DNA of 37,265 nucleotides from a virus (IMGVR_UViG_3300015372_000008:1-37265), one strand, 5' to 3'; positions 2,482-12,540 are shown, numbered from the stretch's first letter. Program-made: numbers and translations. Notes: a model not told the origin generated them from the sequence alone.

Positions 2482-2759
2482 CTGATCCGTCGGTCGAAGC
2501 CTTCGTCCAGCAGGGGATGGAGGAGATGACCCGCATCGTCCAGGCAGCAGTCATCTCGGTCGCGGTCGCGGTCCCGGCCTGCACGGCGCTGGTGCAGGGC
2601 GTCGCCCTCGCCCAGGCGCAGGGCCTCATGCCGCAGGGCCTCGATGCCGCGACCGAGGCCCTACTGGCGACAGCGGAACGTCTCCGCCTCTGCTACACGG
2701 ACCTCAAGCAGATCTCGGACCTGGTCGAGCAGGCGCAGGAGGAGCGCACGAGTGGATGA
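2478..2759 (+). CDS. Small helical protein, one hydrophobic segment
   Basis: 93 residues from GTG 2478, which overlaps the previous stop (GTGA). The sequence is mainly helical, with an alanine/valine-rich hydrophobic stretch at about residues 22-45 (IVQAAVISVAVAVPACTALVQGVALA) that could be a membrane helix, then a charged helix with heptad character (ATEALLATAERLRLCYTDLKQISDLVEQAQEE). It belongs to the coupled run 2083-3546 and ends overlapping the GTG start of the DUF1360-like gene. A minor structural or membrane-associated role is possible; no family is recognised. Confidence 0.65.
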   Translation: MTDPSVEAFVQQGMEEMTRIVQAAVISVAVAVPACTALVQGVALAQAQGLMPQGLDAATEALLATAERLRLCYTDLKQISDLVEQAQEERTSG

Positions 2760-3267
2760 TCGTCTCATCGTGGACATGCTGGCGGCCGCCAGACTGACCC
2801 GCCTCATCACTACGGACAGCTTTCCGCCGGTGAAGATCGCCCGTGAGGGGCTACTGGACGTAGTGGACCCAGACCGGAAGCGCCGACCGAAGGGCGCCGA
2901 GCCGCCCGCCCTAGCGGATCTGTTGGAGTGCAACTGGTGCACCGGCTGGTATGTGAGCGTCGGGGTCCTGGCAGCGCGCCGGTGGCTGCCGGGGTGGGGC
3001 TGGATCGCTCGTGCGCTCGCCACATCGATGGTCGTCGGGTTCGTCGCGACCCGCAGTGAGCACACGCGTGGGGACCTAGCCGATGTAGCGGATGCGGTCG
3101 ACAAGGCCGGGAAGCAGCTGGCGCAGGTCGTGGTGCCGTTCCAGGGGATCCTCCGTGATCTGAGCGGCGGCCCGTCGGGCACCTGGACCGAAACCCCTGC
3201 CGGGTGGCAGCTGCGCAGCTATGAGAAGCCCGAGGTCACGGATCTCGGCAACCTGAAGGAGTCGTAG
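2752..3267 (+). CDS. DUF1360-like membrane protein
   Basis: 171 residues from GTG 2752, 7 nt after GGAGGAG; the start overlaps the previous stop. The N-terminal half has the DUF1360 layout: a helical lead-in (LIVDMLAAARLTRLITTDSFP), a charged PDRKRRPKG region, then LLECNWCTGWYVSVGVLAARRW with the characteristic C-x2-C followed by a hydrophobic helix, and a second hydrophobic segment near 85-100. DUF1360 proteins are membrane proteins of unknown function found in bacteria and common in actinobacteriophages. The C-terminal 70 residues (ADVADAVDKAGKQL and beyond) are hydrophilic. The family match is good from the Cys motif; the role in the phage is not known. Confidence 0.7.
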   Translation: MDDRLIVDMLAAARLTRLITTDSFPPVKIAREGLLDVVDPDRKRRPKGAEPPALADLLECNWCTGWYVSVGVLAARRWLPGWGWIARALATSMVVGFVATRSEHTRGDLADVADAVDKAGKQLAQVVVPFQGILRDLSGGPSGTWTETPAGWQLRSYEKPEVTDLGNLKES

Positions 3268-4946: not shown

Positions 4947-4960
4947 CCTGCGTAGGCCGT

Positions 4961-5002
4961 GGAGCGGGAGGGGGTGTCGCCCGCCAGCGTCCCTCCCGCT
5001 CC
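4961..5002 (+). terminator. Perfect 12-bp GC-rich stem-loop
   Basis: GGAGCGGGAGGG (4961-4972) and CCCTCCCGCTCC (4991-5002) are exact inverted repeats around an 18-nt loop. It sits between the small-gene operon and the virion-surface genes, with no T run. It is probably a terminator or mRNA end. TACGGT at 5027-5032 follows as a possible -10 of the next unit. Confidence 0.5.
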
Positions 5003-5026
5003 GGCACCACCGTCCCCTAGACCTGC

Positions 5027-5032
5027 TACGGT
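5027..5032 (+). promoter_or_regulatory. Candidate -10 (TACGGT) ahead of the virion-surface genes
   Basis: A TANNNT hexamer 25 nt after the stem-loop and 37 nt before ATG 5070, which has a strong GGAGGGG ribosome site. No obvious -35 box is present. The order hairpin, -10-like hexamer, gene recurs at 18377-18444. Confidence 0.3.
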
Positions 5033-5069
5033 CCGGCTCGCCGCGTCGGGCGCAGCAGGAGGGGACCGG

Positions 5070-5699
5070 ATGCTGACCGCCACAGGCCAGAACGCCATGC
5101 TCACGGGCGGGCTCGGGAACGCGATCACCCACGTCTCGCTGCACACGGGGAACCCGGGCTCGACGGGGACGAACGAAGCGACGGGCGGTTCGCCGGCCTA
5201 CGCCCGCAAGGCGGTCACGTGGGCGGCGGCGTCGGCTGGGACCCGGGCCAATGGGACGTCGTCGCTCGTGTTCGATGTCGCGGCGGGTTCGACGATCCTG
5301 TTCGCCGGCTACTGGGATGCGATCTCGGCCGGGAACTTCTACGGCTACTCGGGGATCGGGGCGTCGCTCCTCGGCGGGAACGGCGCCGCGGCGACGTCGG
5401 ATCTCATCACGTCCTACGCCCATGGGCTCGTGGCGAACGACCGGGTCTTTTTCCAGGACGTGTCCGAGGCGCTGCCGACAGGGATCGCTGAGGGGACCGT
5501 TTACTACGTGATCTCCACGGGCCTGACGACCGATGTGTTCTCGGTCTCGACGACGCTCGGTGGCGGCGCGTTGGATATCACGGGTGCGGGTGATGTCCGG
5601 TGGGAGCAGACGAAGCCGGAGACGTTCGGCAGCCAGGGGACGTTGACGATGGCGATTGGTGCGATCGTCCTCGACGCGACGCTGAGCGGAACGGCCTAG
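5070..5699 (+). CDS. Phage structural protein of the actinophage tail-fibre-like type
   Basis: 209 residues from ATG 5070, after AGGAGGGG. The N-terminal 60 residues contain a pattern common in actinobacteriophage virion proteins (HVSLHTGNPGSTGTNE, then GSPAYARKAVTWAAAS), followed by a beta-rich region including a segment typical of phage surface domains (HGLVANDRVFFQDVSEALPTGI, GTVYYVISTGLTTDVFSVS). No signal peptide. The absence of membrane segments and the Gly/Ser/Thr richness fit a beta-sandwich fibre or decoration protein. It opens the surface-protein group ending with the GH5 protein. Exact virion location is not known. Confidence 0.7.
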   Translation: MLTATGQNAMLTGGLGNAITHVSLHTGNPGSTGTNEATGGSPAYARKAVTWAAASAGTRANGTSSLVFDVAAGSTILFAGYWDAISAGNFYGYSGIGASLLGGNGAAATSDLITSYAHGLVANDRVFFQDVSEALPTGIAEGTVYYVISTGLTTDVFSVSTTLGGGALDITGAGDVRWEQTKPETFGSQGTLTMAIGAIVLDATLSGTA

Positions 5700-5706
5700 C
5701 TCAGCT

Positions 5707-6162
5707 ATGAGCGCGGGGTTCTACTCGGCGATGGTCGAGAACGCGACGATCACCGGCGCGGTCACCTGCCTCCAGCTGACCGCCCCATCGACCGCAGCGT
5801 TGAAGCTGACCCGGGTCGAGATCGGCCAGGCCGGCGTCACCGCCAGCGCGATGCAGCGGATGGCGTTGCGCCGCAAGTCGGCCACGGCGACCGGTCTTAC
5901 GTCGATCACGCCCAGACCGGTAGCGCCGGGCTATGCGGCGGCTGGGGCGACGGCAGGTCATACAGCGACGGGCGAAGGGACCGATACCACGGACCAACGC
6001 CTGTTCGTGTTCAACGTCCTCGCCGGGTATCTGTGGGCGCCGACGTCGCCGAAGGAGGAGATCGTCGTCCCGCCGTCGGGGATCATCTGTCTGAAGGCCC
6101 TGGCGACGCCGGGGACGACGACGGGGTGGGCGTTCCAGATGGACTTCGAGGAGATCGGCTGA
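5707..6162 (+). CDS. Beta-rich phage structural protein
   Basis: 151 residues from ATG 5707, only 7 nt after the previous stop and without a clear ribosome site. The sequence has alternating beta strands (TCLQLTAPSTAALKLTRVEIGQ, RLFVFNVLAGYLWAP, EEIVVPPSGIICLKAL) and ends FQMDFEEIG, a layout shared with small head/tail decoration proteins of actinophages. Residues 55-105 are Thr/Ala-rich and probably a flexible loop. It lies between two other probable surface proteins. A virion role is inferred from context and composition. Confidence 0.6.
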   Translation: MSAGFYSAMVENATITGAVTCLQLTAPSTAALKLTRVEIGQAGVTASAMQRMALRRKSATATGLTSITPRPVAPGYAAAGATAGHTATGEGTDTTDQRLFVFNVLAGYLWAPTSPKEEIVVPPSGIICLKALATPGTTTGWAFQMDFEEIG

Positions 6163-6197
6163 CGCCGTTCCCTCACGCGTAGGGAGGACGTGACCTT

Positions 6198-9100
6198 GTG
6201 ACGTTCGCCCCTACTGAACTCGACTACCGGGGTATCGCCGGTTCGGCGTCGCTCATCGACTCGGACTCGACGACGTTCGTCAGCGGCCGTCTCTATGTGG
6301 TCGCGGTGTCGGTGTCGGGTTCGGTCGGCCGGACGACGACCTCCATCACGAACAACGCTGGGGTGTCGGGCACCTGGGCCGAGGCCCTGTCGGGTGGCAC
6401 GGACTCCACCTGGAGCGACGGCGTCAACTGGGCCACGACGTGTTTCACCTCTACGAACGCGTCGGGGACGGGCAGTATCCGCGCCAACCTGTCGGGGTCG
6501 GCGTCGTCGTCGCTGCGTATCCAGATCTTCGAGATCCCGGATGGGTTCGATACCTCGGGGATGATCGTCCAGTCGGTCATCGGGTTCACGGCATTGGGCG
6601 GCTCGGCGCAGTCGACCGCGAACCTGGCGAACAGCGCCGCCGCCGCGAACATGCGGCTCGGCTACTTCGTCCACCGGTTGACCGATGCGTTCACGGCTGC
6701 GAACGGCGGGACACTCGAAGGCGCGCACGCCGACACCTCGCCGAACTCGGTCACGGTCGGCCTCTGGTGGAAGGTGGGTGACGCCACCAGCGACCCGTCG
6801 GTGACCTACGCCGACAACAGCCGGACGACCGGCTACTGGGCCATCGAGATCAAGGCCGCGGCTGTTACCGAGTCGTTCGTTCCGGCTCGGGATCGGCTGC
6901 CGATCACGCCGCCCTACAGCGGGTACAACCTGCCGGCCCGTCGGCCGGTGGCGTGGCTGCCCGAGATGACGGCCGTAGGGGTGAGCACCGGCGCGCGGCT
7001 GCGGGTCGCGGAGCGGGCCCGTGTGGCTGTAGGACATGCGGCGACGAGCCCAGCCCGGCTGCGAACCCCTACCCGACTTCGGGCGGGCAAGGTCAAGGAC
7101 TCGACCAACGCGGCGCGGTTGAGGCTGGCGGTCCGGGCGAAGGCGACGCTCAGCATCTCGCCGTGGAAGGTCTCGGGCCGGCACCTGAACCTGAACGGTG
7201 TCGAGACGACCGTGAAGGGCGTCAGCCAGTACGTCGGTGCTGGATGGGGCGACGACGGCCTCACGAACACGTTCACCGGCGCGGCGTTGACCACCTTCGT
7301 CAATGACCTTGTCGACTGTGGCATCAACATCGTCCGGCTGCCGATGCAGGACGACACCGGCTCGACCTACCGGGCCTTCGTGAAGGGCGTCATCGAGGCG
7401 TGCGCCGCCCAGAACATCTACTGCGTCTTGAACCCGCAGGACGGCGCCCCGGGCACGTGGGCCGGGAACCAGTGGCCGACGCAGTCCACGACGAACGACA
7501 CGGCGATCGCGGCGGCGAACTTCCTGATCGCCTACTGGAACTACCTCCCGGCGGCCGACCGGAAGTGGGTCCTGTTCGAGACGATCAACGAACCGACACT
7601 CGACTGGCTCGTGCCGAGCGAGGTCACCGCGTGGAAGAACGGGCACATCGCGGCGATCGATGTCCTCCGGGCCGGTGGCTATGACGGGCCGATCCTGTGC
7701 GACGGGATGAACTATTCGTGGACGATCCCGGTCGAGGGTGAGGTGTTGACGATCCTCGCGCACGACCCGAACGTGTGGTTCGCGTCGCACCGGTACGCCA
7801 CCCCGGATGGCACGACCTACCTGGGGGATAGCGACCCGACCACCGATTGGAAACCGGCGTGGCCCGACGTGGCCGATTCGATCGGGTTCGCGTTCGTCCA
7901 GGGCGAGTGGGGGCCCTACAACGGTGGGCTCGGGAGCGGCCGGACCCTCGACGACAACCTGGATGGCTGGTGCACCACGATGGCCGCGGAGATCACGGCG
8001 GCCCGTGGCCTCGATGATTGCGCCGGAATGTTCGGTTGGATCTGGGTCTGGTCCGACGAGAACACGATGCGCTCCTATGACGACTGGAACGACACGCAGA
8101 CTGTCACGCCCGTGCGTTGGGGCGACATGGTCTGCGGGATGTTCACCGCCGTCGCGGTGAGCGTCGGGGCCCGGTTGCGGACGAGCCTGAAAGCCCGAGC
8201 GCTGGTAGCGCACGGGGCGCCGAACGAAACGCCGCGGTTGAGGGTGGCGGTCCGGGCGAAGATCACGCCTGTTCACGCAGGGACGGGGCAAGCGGCCCGG
8301 CTCAGGACCGCTACCCGGGCTAGGACCCTGGTGGCGAAGGGCGCGTCGACGAGCGCGCCCCGCCTGCGAATAGCAGAACGGGCGCGGGCGCTCGTCGCGC
8401 ACGCGGCGCCGAACGAGGCCGGTCGGCTCCGGGCGGTTGAATGGACCCGGGTCACGAGCGTGAAGGGCGCCGGCACGAGCGCGCCGCGGCTCAGAACCGC
8501 TACCCGGGCTCGGGCCCTCGTCGCGAAGGGCGCGTCCACGTCCGCACCCCGGCTGCGGGTAGCGGAGCGGGCCCGGGCCGTGGTGGCCCACGCGGCGACC
8601 GGAACCGCTACCAGGGCTCGGGTCGCGGAACGGTTCCTGGCAGGAGCGCTCCACGCGGCGCCGAACGAGACGACCCGGCTCCGGGGGGCGGTGAAGATCG
8701 GGGCGTTCGGGTCGCAGGCCCTCAACGTGATGACTGGCGCGTTCCTGCGGGTGGCGGAACGGGCGCGGGCGGCGGACACGCACGCGGCGGCGGGACAGGC
8801 GACACGGCTCCGTACGACGGTCCGGTTGCGGGACACGAGCGTGAAGGGCGCGTCGACGGCGGCACCGCGGCTGCGGGTAGCGGAGCGGGCGCGGGCGGCG
8901 GGTCTCCACGCGGTGAGTGACACGGCACGCCTACGGGCGGTAGGGGATCTGCGGGCGGGGACGGCGGGCGCGCACGCGTCTCCTAGCGTGCTGAGGATCA
9001 GCGGGCGGACCAGGGCCGTTGTTGCGCATGCGGCCCCGGTGGCCGCGCCGCGGCTGCGGGCGGCGGTCCGGGCTCGGACGGCAGGGGTCCACGCTGCCCC

Positions 9101-9797
9101 CACGGTGACCCCCAGGCTCCGCCTGGCTGTCCGGGCTCGGGTTGCTGTCGCCCACGCTGCGCCGGCTCAGGCGGCCCGCTTGAGGGCCGCGGTGAAGCTC
9201 CGGGCGCTCGGGACGCAGGTCGGGATCGCCCAGACGGGTGCCCGCCTCCGGCTGGCTGTCCGGCAACGGGCCCAGGGCGCCCACGCGGCCCCGGCGGAGA
9301 CGACACGGCTCCGTGTGGCCTCGCGGACCCGGGCAGGCTCCGTGAAGGGCGCTCTGGCGGCGCCGCGGCTCCGGGCGGCGATCCGGACCCGGGTCACGAG
9401 CGTGAAGGGCGCCGGCGCTCAGCCGCGGCTGCGGGCGGCGGTCCGGGCACGGTCCGGGGCGCGGCACGACGCGGCGACACCGGGCCGGCTGCGGATCGCT
9501 ACCAGGAGTAGGTCCGTCGGCTACGTGAAGGGCTCGAACCCGGCGACCCGGCTGCGGGTGTCGGTGAGGTCCTACGTCCTGTACTCGCCCGGGTTCGGGA
9601 CCCGGGCCCTGTTGCGGGTCGCGGCGCGGCTGCGGGCCCGTGTGTTCCAGGTCCCGCCGGGAGAGGTGACCTGCTCCAGCTCGACGTTGGAGCCGGCCCG
9701 GATTTCCTCGGCCACACTGGAGCCGGTGAACGTGACAGCCGGCGCGCTGGTGCCGGCTATGACCTCGGCCTGTTCGCTGGAGGAATGCGATGCGTAA
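6198..9797 (+). CDS. Giant virion-surface protein: GH5-type glycanase domain inside an Arg-rich repeat array
   Basis: 1199 residues from GTG 6198 (GGAGG 10 nt upstream). Residues 1-260 form a beta-rich, Ser/Thr-rich domain. About 264-318 hold three arginine-rich repeats. About 322-650 match a GH5 (cellulase-like) TIM barrel: NIVRLPMQ with the conserved Arg, NEP with the acid/base Glu (E465), HRY (H531), GEWG with the nucleophile Glu (E570) and WIWVW near the end. About 657-1150 hold some 24 more repeats (RLR.A.RAR). The end has four 10-residue units (SSATLEP type). GH5 enzymes hydrolyse beta-linked polysaccharides, so a capsule or cell-wall depolymerase on the virion is likely. It lies just upstream of the portal gene, so a head fibre is as likely as a tail fibre. 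Confidence 0.8.
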   Translation: MTFAPTELDYRGIAGSASLIDSDSTTFVSGRLYVVAVSVSGSVGRTTTSITNNAGVSGTWAEALSGGTDSTWSDGVNWATTCFTSTNASGTGSIRANLSGSASSSLRIQIFEIPDGFDTSGMIVQSVIGFTALGGSAQSTANLANSAAAANMRLGYFVHRLTDAFTAANGGTLEGAHADTSPNSVTVGLWWKVGDATSDPSVTYADNSRTTGYWAIEIKAAAVTESFVPARDRLPITPPYSGYNLPARRPVAWLPEMTAVGVSTGARLRVAERARVAVGHAATSPARLRTPTRLRAGKVKDSTNAARLRLAVRAKATLSISPWKVSGRHLNLNGVETTVKGVSQYVGAGWGDDGLTNTFTGAALTTFVNDLVDCGINIVRLPMQDDTGSTYRAFVKGVIEACAAQNIYCVLNPQDGAPGTWAGNQWPTQSTTNDTAIAAANFLIAYWNYLPAADRKWVLFETINEPTLDWLVPSEVTAWKNGHIAAIDVLRAGGYDGPILCDGMNYSWTIPVEGEVLTILAHDPNVWFASHRYATPDGTTYLGDSDPTTDWKPAWPDVADSIGFAFVQGEWGPYNGGLGSGRTLDDNLDGWCTTMAAEITAARGLDDCAGMFGWIWVWSDENTMRSYDDWNDTQTVTPVRWGDMVCGMFTAVAVSVGARLRTSLKARALVAHGAPNETPRLRVAVRAKITPVHAGTGQAARLRTATRARTLVAKGASTSAPRLRIAERARALVAHAAPNEAGRLRAVEWTRVTSVKGAGTSAPRLRTATRARALVAKGASTSAPRLRVAERARAVVAHAATGTATRARVAERFLAGALHAAPNETTRLRGAVKIGAFGSQALNVMTGAFLRVAERARAADTHAAAGQATRLRTTVRLRDTSVKGASTAAPRLRVAERARAAGLHAVSDTARLRAVGDLRAGTAGAHASPSVLRISGRTRAVVAHAAPVAAPRLRAAVRARTAGVHAAPTVTPRLRLAVRARVAVAHAAPAQAARLRAAVKLRALGTQVGIAQTGARLRLAVRQRAQGAHAAPAETTRLRVASRTRAGSVKGALAAPRLRAAIRTRVTSVKGAGAQPRLRAAVRARSGARHDAATPGRLRIATRSRSVGYVKGSNPATRLRVSVRSYVLYSPGFGTRALLRVAARLRARVFQVPPGEVTCSSSTLEPARISSATLEPVNVTAGALVPAMTSACSLEECDA
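6990..7150 (+). repeat. First block of Arg-rich coding repeats (3 units)
   Basis: Three units of about 20 codons (RLRVAERAR, RLRTPTRLR, RLRLAVRAK) lie directly before the GH5 domain. The DNA is diverged while the RLR.A.R pattern is kept, so these are protein repeats more than recent DNA duplications. Confidence 0.8.
8163..9650 (+). repeat. Second block of Arg-rich coding repeats (about 24 units)
   Basis: About 24 units of 19-23 residues begin RLR.A.RAR and end in one of two flavours, HAAP-like or VKGAS-like. Roughly a quarter of the residues are Arg and very few are acidic. Some neighbouring units are close at DNA level, such as the VAKGASTSAP pair, pointing to expansion by duplication. Confidence 0.85.
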
Positions 9798-10080
9798 CGG
9801 TGGAACGGCATGGTTCACGTTCACGTTCGGGAAGTTGAAGCCCACGGCCCAAGATGCCGACCCGGTCCCGGTCGAAGTGGAGATGCGGGTCCCGGATGAC
9901 AGCAAGCAGGTGTGGACCTACGGGCTGGATCCGGAGATCGTCCGGGACTCCGTGGGCCACTACCACATGGAGACACCGCCGATGGATCACCCGGCTGGCG
10001 GGACGTACACGCTCCTCGCGCGCGGCCCCGGCTATCCGGAGACGCGGTGCGAGATCAAGGTCGAACCGGCCTACTGGTAG
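9790..10080 (+). CDS. Small beta-sandwich-like virion protein
   Basis: 96 residues from ATG 9790, overlapping the end of the GH5 protein gene by 8 nt, with GGAGG at 9779-9783 inside that gene. The strand pattern (AWFTFTFGKLKP, VPVEVEMRVPD, GHYHMETPP, GGTYTLLARGPGYPETRCEIKV) is that of a single Ig-like domain: the GxY/H motif followed by a strand and a final E.KV strand resembles small phage attachment or chaperone-like domains. Translational coupling to the giant fibre gene suggests a partner, perhaps a capping or assembly protein. Family not recognised. Confidence 0.65.
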   Translation: MRNGGTAWFTFTFGKLKPTAQDADPVPVEVEMRVPDDSKQVWTYGLDPEIVRDSVGHYHMETPPMDHPAGGTYTLLARGPGYPETRCEIKVEPAYW

Positions 10081-10113: not shown

Positions 10114-12540
10114 ATGGCACGCCGCCGGGCAGTGAACGAGACCGTCGCGGCGGGCGGCGACCAAGTCACCGTAGGAGGCCAGCCGGCGCAGAACCGGCGG
10201 ATCACCGCGCAGGCGCAGACGCTCGACATCGCCGACCGCAAGGTGATCAAGCGGGTCCAGGCCACGAAACAGGAGTGGCAGGGCGAGGCCTGGTCCTACT
10301 ACGACTCGGTCCCGCCGGTCGGCTTCGCGACGGACTTCATCGGCAACGCGATGTCGAGGATCCGCTACTACATCGGCTACCAGCCCGACCCGTCGTCGTG
10401 GCCGATCGAGGTCGACCCGGAGGATCCGCCCGAGGACTTCGACCAGACCGCCTACGAGAAGGCCCAGGCGGCGCTCGTGAGGATGAACACGGGCTCGGGG
10501 TTGCAGGAGATGGGCCGCAAGACCGGGATCAACTTGACGATCCCGGGCGAGTGCTTCCTGGTGGCCCGCCACGCGCCGGATGAGGTATCTGGCGTAGACG
10601 TTGAGCGGTTCGACGTCTACAGCAACGACGAGATCGAGTTCCCGCGTTCGGGCGGGGCGGTGAAGATCAAGCCAGGCGGCGACGCCGACGCGGAGATCAA
10701 GCTGGACCCGGCACGGTCGCTGGTGGTGCGGATCTGGCGTCCTCATCCCCGTAGGGGCGAACTGGCGATCACGCCGATGCGCCGGCTGTTGGAGCCCTGT
10801 GAGGAGCTGCTGCTCATCCAGCGCTACTTCCGGAGCGCGACTCGGTCCCGGCTGAACGCAGGCGTGTGGCTGGTCCCGAAGTCGGCGAAGCTCGGGCCCG
10901 ATGACAACAAGGATCCGGAACACCCCGACGGCGTCGACATCCTGGCGGACAAGCTGGTCCGGCACTTCTCGACACCGATCGACGACGAAGGCAGCGCGGC
11001 GGCGGTGGTCCCGTTCCTACTGCACGTAGCGGGCGAGACGATCGACCAGTTCAGGCACCAGAGCTTCGCCCGAGAGTTCGACAAGACAGCGATGGCCCGG
11101 GTGCCACAACTCCTCGGCGCGATCGCTGGAGGGGTGGATCTCCCGGACCAGGTGGTACTGGGGTTAGGAGATGTGAAGTTCCGCAACGCCGAGGTCATCA
11201 CCGACGAGCAGTTCAAGCTCCATCTGGATCCCCTCGCAGGGGTCCTGTGCCGGAGCTGGACGGTCGGCTACCTCTACCCGTTCATGGAGGCCAAGGACCT
11301 CGACTTCGGGCCGATCGACCCGGAGGTCGCGCGCCGGTTCCTGATCTGGTACGACCCCTCGGCCGCGACGAAGGACCCCGACCAGGCCGAGTCCAGCAAC
11401 TTCGGTTACGAGAACGATCTGCTGGCGGGCCGGGTGTGGCGGCGGGTGAACAACTACACCGAGGAGGACGCGCCGGACGAGGAGGAGCTGGGCCAGAAGG
11501 CCGAGGCCCGCAAGGCCGCGATGCCGCCGACGCCGGAGCAGCCCACCGCGCCGGAGGAGCCCGGGGCGCCTCCACCGACGGATCAGGGCGACGACGAGCT
11601 ACCGCTCGCCGCCGCGGTCGTGGTCCCGCCGTGGGAGATCGTGACGGCCGGCCCGCGACGCCGAGCAGCGCTAGGAGCCCGGCTCGCCGCTGCGGAAGGC
11701 GCGGCGCGGTACCGGCTTCAGTCGGCGGCGGACACGGCGATGCGCGATGCCTACAAGCGGATTGGGGCGCAGGTCCGGGCGAAGGCCAACGCCGAGCTAC
11801 GGGCCGAGCTTCGGCATCTGCAGAACCGTGCGATCGTTGCGGCGCTAGGGGTTCAGCGGGTCGAGTCGTTGGGGGTGTCGCCGGGCCAGGCAGTCGCGGA
11901 TGCGCTCGATGAGCTGGAGGCCCGCTTCCATGAGATCGTCCTCGCGCATCAGGAGAACGTGATCCGCATGATCGCGGGAGCGGCGGGCGCGTCGACGGGC
12001 GCGTTGTGGGCGCGGGTGGAGGGCCGCTACGGCGACGCTCGGGAGGCGGCGTGGGGCGAGATGCGGGCCCGTCTGGAGAAGCTGTCGGCGGATGATCTGT
12101 TCCTGGCGATGATCGCGGCGGCGCCGAAGCGGCGGCCGTCGGTCATCCCGATCGAGGAGGCGCTCGGCGAATTCGATGTGACCGTGTCGATCCCGCCGAA
12201 CGTCGCGCGTGAGGTCCTGTCGATCAGCGGCGGGGTACCGGCGCCGGTTGCGACGGAGCCGCTGACCCTAGGCGGGGTAGCGACTGGGCCGATCGCGGTG
12301 GAGACGGTCGAGGAGCAGGGCATGACGTTCGAGGGCTACGAGTGGATCTACGGTGATCCGGGCACGCGCACGACCGTCTTCGAGCCGCACTACGAATTGA
12401 ACGGCCTGAAGTTCACCGATTTCAGCGACGTGGCCCTTGCCAATAGCGAGGATTGGCCTCCTGGTCCGTCCTACTTCCCGGGCGATCACCCGGGCTGCCA
12501 ATGTGACTACGCCCCGTTCGTCGGGGTGAAGGAGGGCTAG
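10114..12540 (+). CDS. Portal protein fused to a MuF-like C-terminal domain
   Basis: 808 residues from ATG 10114. Residues about 45-450 follow the actinophage portal layout: WSYYDSVPPVGFATDFIGNAMSRIRYYIGY near the start, a beta-rich middle, the segment VVRIWRPHPRRGELAITPMRRLLEPCEELLLIQ, and helical segments around 330-450. A Pro/Glu-rich linker (about 470-495) leads to a helical region and a MuF-like end (EPHYELNGLKF, GDHPGCQCDY). The portal ring forms the DNA entry vertex; MuF domains are minor head proteins. Portal-MuF fusions are known in actinophages. The terminase large subunit, usually next to the portal, is not in this window. Confidence 0.9.
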   Translation: MARRRAVNETVAAGGDQVTVGGQPAQNRRITAQAQTLDIADRKVIKRVQATKQEWQGEAWSYYDSVPPVGFATDFIGNAMSRIRYYIGYQPDPSSWPIEVDPEDPPEDFDQTAYEKAQAALVRMNTGSGLQEMGRKTGINLTIPGECFLVARHAPDEVSGVDVERFDVYSNDEIEFPRSGGAVKIKPGGDADAEIKLDPARSLVVRIWRPHPRRGELAITPMRRLLEPCEELLLIQRYFRSATRSRLNAGVWLVPKSAKLGPDDNKDPEHPDGVDILADKLVRHFSTPIDDEGSAAAVVPFLLHVAGETIDQFRHQSFAREFDKTAMARVPQLLGAIAGGVDLPDQVVLGLGDVKFRNAEVITDEQFKLHLDPLAGVLCRSWTVGYLYPFMEAKDLDFGPIDPEVARRFLIWYDPSAATKDPDQAESSNFGYENDLLAGRVWRRVNNYTEEDAPDEEELGQKAEARKAAMPPTPEQPTAPEEPGAPPPTDQGDDELPLAAAVVVPPWEIVTAGPRRRAALGARLAAAEGAARYRLQSAADTAMRDAYKRIGAQVRAKANAELRAELRHLQNRAIVAALGVQRVESLGVSPGQAVADALDELEARFHEIVLAHQENVIRMIAGAAGASTGALWARVEGRYGDAREAAWGEMRARLEKLSADDLFLAMIAAAPKRRPSVIPIEEALGEFDVTVSIPPNVAREVLSISGGVPAPVATEPLTLGGVATGPIAVETVEEQGMTFEGYEWIYGDPGTRTTVFEPHYELNGLKFTDFSDVALANSEDWPPGPSYFPGDHPGCQCDYAPFVGVKEG

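Follow-up and report, generated by a model that had tools for sequence, protein, structure and literature searches.

The 1199-aa protein encoded at positions 6198-9797 (plus strand) of a complete IMG/VR virus record of 37,265 bases, hereinafter the window, carries a GH5 domain with a predicted pair of catalytic glutamates and with arginine-rich repeats on both sides, and its gene is located between the gene for a Gp80-like protein and the portal gene. Gp80-like genes of other phages are associated with repeat proteins and embedded hydrolases. In our view, this protein likely serves as the enzyme payload on a Gp80-type appendage of the virion of an actinobacterial siphophage and is involved in the hydrolysis of coat glycans. 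The payload protein is probably exposed on the exterior of the virus, where it would help to clear the surface coat of the host.

Genome context of the payload gene

The window has a G+C content of 69%, and searches for tRNAs and Rfam families within it produced zero matches. Comparison with PHROG profiles identified the portal protein (phrog_776, E = 1.7e-85) and the major capsid protein (phrog_777); in addition, the window encompasses a head protease region and genes for the major tail protein, head-tail adaptor, tape measure protein and minor tail proteins, along with an endolysin-like gene. Judging from this gene content, the virus is a siphovirus of actinobacteria. The relatives of the portal and capsid proteins come mostly from phages of Mycobacterium, Gordonia, Microbacterium, Arthrobacter and Streptomyces. 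In 26 related loci, the gene directly upstream of the portal gene is matched by the window gene at 2644-3267; in the window, this gene is separated from the portal gene by 6.8 kb, and the whole appendage module lies in between. The portal protein itself (10114-12540) consists of 808 aa, at least 230 aa beyond the length of its relatives, and its C-terminal stretch, with the motif GDHPGCQCDY, resembles a MuF-type head morphogenesis domain fused to the portal.

Upstream of the payload gene is the gene for a Gp80-like virion fibre or fibril protein (4959-5699, plus strand; translation may actually begin at the ATG near 5070), which matches PF23140 (E = 2e-10) and phrog_240, annotated as ‘head protein’ (E = 2.5e-14). 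A profile built from this protein and two relatives retrieved the podophage GP4 virion protein (PDB 8JOU) with E = 1.5e-5. The initial annotation had described the payload as a virion-type protein, and a virion-gene context is supported by this neighbour within the block of virion genes. Between the Gp80-like and payload genes, a small protein is encoded (5707-6162, plus strand) for which no match was detected in Pfam, PHROG or a tblastn search of phages. Another small protein (9790-10080, plus strand), a possible adaptor without a family match, is encoded by a gene whose start overlaps the payload stop codon.

The payload open reading frame starts with GTG and is uninterrupted. The first 225 residues (6198-6872) form a domain that is predicted, with low confidence, to be rich in beta-strands and for which no family match was found; no signal peptide was apparent on inspection of the N-terminus (MTFAPTELDYRGIAGS). 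This domain is followed by repeat units 1-3 (residues 267-319; 6996-7154), the GH5 domain (residues 320-656; 7155-8165), repeat units 4-27, which comprise the basic array (residues 659-1159; 8172-9674), and a 40-residue C-terminal tail (residues 1160-1199; 9675-9794) that differs from the main array and contains short SSATLEP-type repeats of its own.

The GH5 domain

The Pfam profile PF00150 (Cellulase/GH5) matched the whole protein at residues 334-595 with 57.5 bits and the isolated domain, over most of its length, with 61.5 bits, against a cut-off of 23.5 (E = 1.1e-16). The observation of the initial annotation that a GH5-type domain is embedded in the repeat array is confirmed. An AlphaFold2 model of the domain was built from an alignment of bacterial mannanases retrieved with a two-sequence profile; all these sequences belong to GH5, so the support from the model is not fully independent. 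In this model, residues 360-535 mostly have pLDDT values of 65-90, and the strand-helix order of a TIM barrel continues to about residue 657, with a less confident C-terminal part. Among the best 50 solved structures listed by VIA-align, nearly all are GH5 enzymes or similar beta-glycanases (Z of 17-19, 249-298 residues aligned, the match extending over residues 320-657), with GH5_4 glucanases and mannanases tied in Z. Foldseek comparison of the model also gave matches to GH5-type folds; among viral models, a putative glycoside hydrolase from Erwinia phage pEp_SNUABM_01 ranked first, followed by weak matches to phage proteins and tail fibres. Taken with the shared origin of the alignment, these comparisons support, rather than independently prove, a (beta/alpha)8 barrel.

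The alignment and the predicted strands place Glu465 (7590-7592), the predicted acid/base of an NEP motif aligned with that of mannanases, on strand 4, and Glu570 (7905-7907), the predicted nucleophile in a GEWG motif aligned with mannanase GEFG, on strand 7. The initial annotation had staked its assignment on a TIM barrel with the two glutamates in an active-site geometry, and the predicted structure has a TIM barrel with one glutamate at the end of strand 4 and the other at the end of strand 7. The active site of GH5 usually contains eight invariant residues, including a histidine on strand 3. According to the alignment, Arg380, Asn464, His531, Tyr533 and the strand-8 Trp are kept, and the position of the strand-3 histidine is occupied by Gln414. 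The identity of the domain to the nearest relatives found is only 24-32%, so that neither the GH5 subfamily nor the substrate can be named.

The replacement of the usual histidine by Gln414 counts against our interpretation and, together with the distance from characterised enzymes, could be taken as an indication that the domain belongs to the same appendage but has lost the cutting activity and functions as a lectin-like adhesin for a host glycan. We consider such a loss unlikely given that both catalytic glutamates are kept along with the Arg, Asn, His, Tyr and Trp residues, and favor an enzymatically active payload.

The repeat array

The repeat units start at residues 267, 287 and 307 before the GH5 domain and at residues 659, 680 and so on to 1137 after it, amounting to 27 units of 20-22 aa with a period of 21 aa; the 3 and 24 units counted previously on the two sides of the domain are thus recovered. 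The register of the repeat is R-L-R-x-A-x-R-x-R. In the 500 residues from 656 to 1155, there are 22 RLR motifs, 15 of which are spaced 19-22 aa apart, compared to a maximum of 4 motifs and 1 such spacing in 1000 composition shuffles, and the identity autocorrelation peaks at lags 21 (0.29) and 42 (0.28) over a background of about 0.12. The initial annotation described these repeats as very rich in arginine and almost devoid of acidic residues. The first part holds, with 87 Arg (about 17% of the array) and 11 Lys in residues 656-1155; the second is slightly too strong because the same stretch contains 5 Asp and 10 Glu, with Glu being common at strand position 5 of the unit. In this stretch, Arg and Lys thus account for 19.6% of the residues, and Asp and Glu for 3.0%. 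The HAAP and VKG endings of the units, said to alternate, do not do so strictly.

If the unit is a beta-strand, its register would place arginines on one face and Leu, Val and Ala mostly on the opposite face. AlphaFold modeling of six repeats from a self-built alignment yielded a low-confidence model with one strand per unit; its pLDDT of only 56 is a point against the proposed stalk. The unit starting at residue 307, before the GH5 domain, and that starting at residue 680, after it, are identical in most of their first 36 bases, a similarity that is compatible with the array having been duplicated around the enzyme as well as with the enzyme having been inserted into the array.

The high G+C content calls for caution with regard to frame and composition artefacts. 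GC-rich coding DNA gives rise to long false open reading frames, such as the 983-aa antisense one (5958-8909, minus strand) that runs across the GH5 gene, and RLR-like arrays of another kind are found in unrelated contigs. The possibility that the payload protein is itself such an artefact is nevertheless refuted: it is encoded in a single open frame, every segment of which has a third-position GC of 82-91%, which puts the repeats and the GH5 domain in the same frame; the GH5 match is significant (E of 1e-16), and the repeat spacing is far beyond that in the shuffled sequences. The payload repeat was absent from all 24 contigs that we retrieved with a DNA pattern derived from it, their RLR-rich frames being of another kind. 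Three contigs retrieved with the repeat pattern (L098, L093 and L111) contain frames that read as long RLRAAR arrays; these are a different low-complexity repeat, probably in a noncoding frame.

Gp80-like genes and repeat proteins

Another line of evidence comes from the neighbours of Gp80-like genes in cultured phages. The window Gp80-like protein is 55% identical over 71 aa to that of Microbacterium phage Magritte, in which the gene that follows, gp27, encodes an N-terminal domain, short repeats, a GDPD domain and a long array of approximately 20-residue repeats. In ValentiniPuff gp77, vB_MoxS-R1 gp68 and Leaf gp66, the last of which is annotated as ‘minor tail protein’, the order is N-terminal domain, GDPD and repeats, and a Gp80-like gene is located close upstream, as identified by Pfam in ValentiniPuff and Leaf and by sequence in R1. 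Another feature that Leaf and R1 share with the window is a small gene overlapping the payload stop codon. Burkholderia phage BcepMigl has a Gp80-like gene two genes ahead of a gene for a pectin-lyase-like protein.

A scan of IMG/VR with the Gp80-like profile identified 80 loci, 57 of which remained once near-duplicates were removed. When the most repetitive downstream open reading frame of each locus was used, a protein with short-period repeats that started within 2.5 kb downstream was found in 28 of the 57 loci, in contrast to 1 of the 131 control frames, that is, long open reading frames at portal loci from contigs other than those with the Gp80 loci (Fisher p = 2e-16). Counted per open reading frame, with some near-duplicates included, the difference was 31 of 101 versus 1 of 131 (p = 6e-12). 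The repeat period was 18-23 residues in 26 of the 28 repeat-bearing loci. Adjoining Gp80-like genes, we detected proteins with a GDPD domain beside or inside an array of approximately 20-residue repeats (L162, 7366-9078; L163, 7331-9490) and one with a similarly placed GDSL domain that scored just under the Pfam cut-off (L161, 6075-7928). The initial annotation knew of no standard phage fibre with this architecture; the Microbacterium phages and these IMG/VR contigs do encode counterparts, with GDPD or GDSL as the enzyme. The only GH5 domain found among the Gp80-linked repeat proteins compared is that of the window. A simple way to search for new virion glycanases and hydrolases of wall polymers follows from these observations, namely, to inspect the genes just downstream of Gp80-like ones.

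Two loci of this set are of separate interest. The locus with the closest relative of the window Gp80-like protein (L134, 7001-8861; 63% identity) encodes next a 414-aa protein that is not a repeat protein, has an N-terminal hydrophobic stretch and lacks a Pfam match. In the AT-rich phage contig L157, which also contains a Gp80-like gene, a 957-aa protein (6031-8901) consists largely of approximately 20-aa repeats (NSIGIGQSFTAKRNVNSNIV) and presents a clean test case for the fold of the stalk.

The net charge of the 18 arrays compared ranges from -9 to +16 per 100 aa, the window array being the most basic. Given that the sister arrays range from acidic to basic, basicity is a variable trait rather than a rule. 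This spread bears on the possibility that the payload is an internal head protein whose arginine-rich array binds packaged DNA, with the enzyme injected or exposed later. The 17% Arg content of the array, the proximity of the gene to head genes and the frequent annotation of Gp80-like proteins as ‘head protein’ are compatible with such a role. We nevertheless find it highly improbable because the sister arrays are neutral or acidic, the repeat unit resembles an amphipathic strand, and the GP4 relative of the neighbour is a tail-fibre component.

Searches for homologues of the payload

Direct homologues of the payload were not found: scans for close relatives came back empty for the entire protein, for its GH5 domain and for the portal on its own, as did tblastn searches of phages with the full-length protein, the N-terminal domain and the GH5 domain, and of plasmids with the GH5 domain; 296 genomes from the phylum of Micromonospora produced only one weak local match to the GH5 domain. 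No GH5 domain was detected in the 30 portal-related records or in the 45 records with Gp80-like genes. A GH5 match in one viral contig (L130) turned out to be an ordinary host-type mannanase beside phage genes. Profile comparison revealed no significant similarity to the Microbacterium versions for either the N-terminal domain or the small protein at 9790-10080. The absence of homologues in these scans and tblastn searches, and the lack of significant similarity for these two components, weigh against our interpretation. Because no payload relative was found, it is the domain layout and the order of the genes, and not sequence, that link the N-terminal domain and repeats to the family.

Proposed role of the appendage

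Under the scenario that we favor, the Gp80-like protein would form a short fibril on the virion that anchors the 1199-aa protein, perhaps through the beta-rich N-terminal domain of the latter or through the small protein encoded at 9790-10080. The 27 repeats, as beta-strands, would make up an extended stalk on which the GH5 barrel is displayed. During adsorption, the barrel would hydrolyse a beta-linked glycan of the host coat, such as capsule, slime or wall polysaccharide, and cutting of this glycan would allow the tail to reach the host surface. The arginines may grip anionic polymers, as the initial annotation suggested for those of the wall; such gripping is not a general requirement because several sister stalks are neutral or acidic. 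More broadly, it is possible, although not quite probable, that tailed phages generally use the Gp80-linked arrays of approximately 20-residue beta-repeats as stalks for display, with unrelated hydrolases (GH5, GDPD, GDSL) swapped where the N-terminal domain meets the repeats and with a stalk charge tuned to the host coat. Provided that the stalk acts as a neutral scaffold, the module enzymes would be natural tools against actinobacterial coats.

Comparison with known systems

Of the relatives found by sequence, the GH5_8 beta-mannanases of the actinobacteria Micromonospora and Thermobifida are the closest to the GH5 domain, and the catalytic glutamate pair is aligned with theirs. Unlike the window protein, these enzymes are secreted, mostly carry carbohydrate-binding modules and lack basic repeats. 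The domain differs also from classical depolymerase tailspikes in being a predicted TIM barrel rather than a beta-helix.

Among viruses, a soil viral GH5 is a proven endomannanase active on beta-1,4-mannans and has been interpreted as an auxiliary metabolic enzyme (PMC6786970), which raises the possibility that the window GH5, also virus-encoded, is likewise made during infection against environmental polymers and is not part of the virion. However, the window GH5 is no stand-alone enzyme: it is embedded in a 1199-aa repeat protein, with the Gp80-like and portal genes of the virion block on either side. Moreover, the protein has no recognizable signal peptide, and the GDPD of the sister modules is not a plant-polymer enzyme; in enterococcal tail modules, GDPD is held to attack teichoic acids (PMC10194240). 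An auxiliary metabolic role therefore appears very unlikely, in contrast to that of a virion-borne hydrolase.

The GDPD payloads of the Microbacterium phages Magritte, ValentiniPuff, R1 and Leaf share with the window the Gp80-like gene just upstream, an N-terminal domain, a hydrolase near the border between this domain and the repeats, and a long array of approximately 20-residue repeats. They differ in the enzyme, GDPD rather than GH5, in having repeats that are neutral or acidic where measured, and in N-terminal domains without detectable sequence homology to that of the window.

The Gp80-like neighbour belongs to the family of the fibre I protein Gp80 of Ralstonia phage GP4 (PF23140, PDB 8JOU), which leads to the module described for Alishewanella phage LSH1. 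In LSH1, three co-occurring genes, gp34-gp36, encode a protein in which a lyase-like domain is accompanied by a poorly predicted stretch that may be repetitive (gp34), a match to the GP4 fibril 8JOU (gp35) and an Ig fold (gp36), and the working model of 2026 consists of an Ig-fold adaptor, a fibril and an enzyme payload (PMC13243795). In the first 50 kb of Alishewanella phage Slicko01, the payload gene was not seen. The window resembles the LSH1 module in combining a fibril protein of the 8JOU kind with an enzyme-like payload that has repeats, suspected ones in LSH1; the likeness is judged from the published description, and the LSH1 payload is a lyase-like beta-helix rather than GH5. The candidate counterpart of the Ig-fold protein is the small protein encoded at 9790-10080, which shares its position with those of Leaf and R1. 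By analogy, the window fits the three-gene model, with GH5 as the payload enzyme, and an orphan metagenomic protein is now tied to this recently proposed virion module. With regard to the question left open for LSH1, the related modules suggest an answer: next to the enzyme, they have regularly arrayed repeats of approximately 20 residues. The architecture is of the kind recently proposed for such modules; what is new in it is the GH5 domain, together with the strongly basic character of the stalk.
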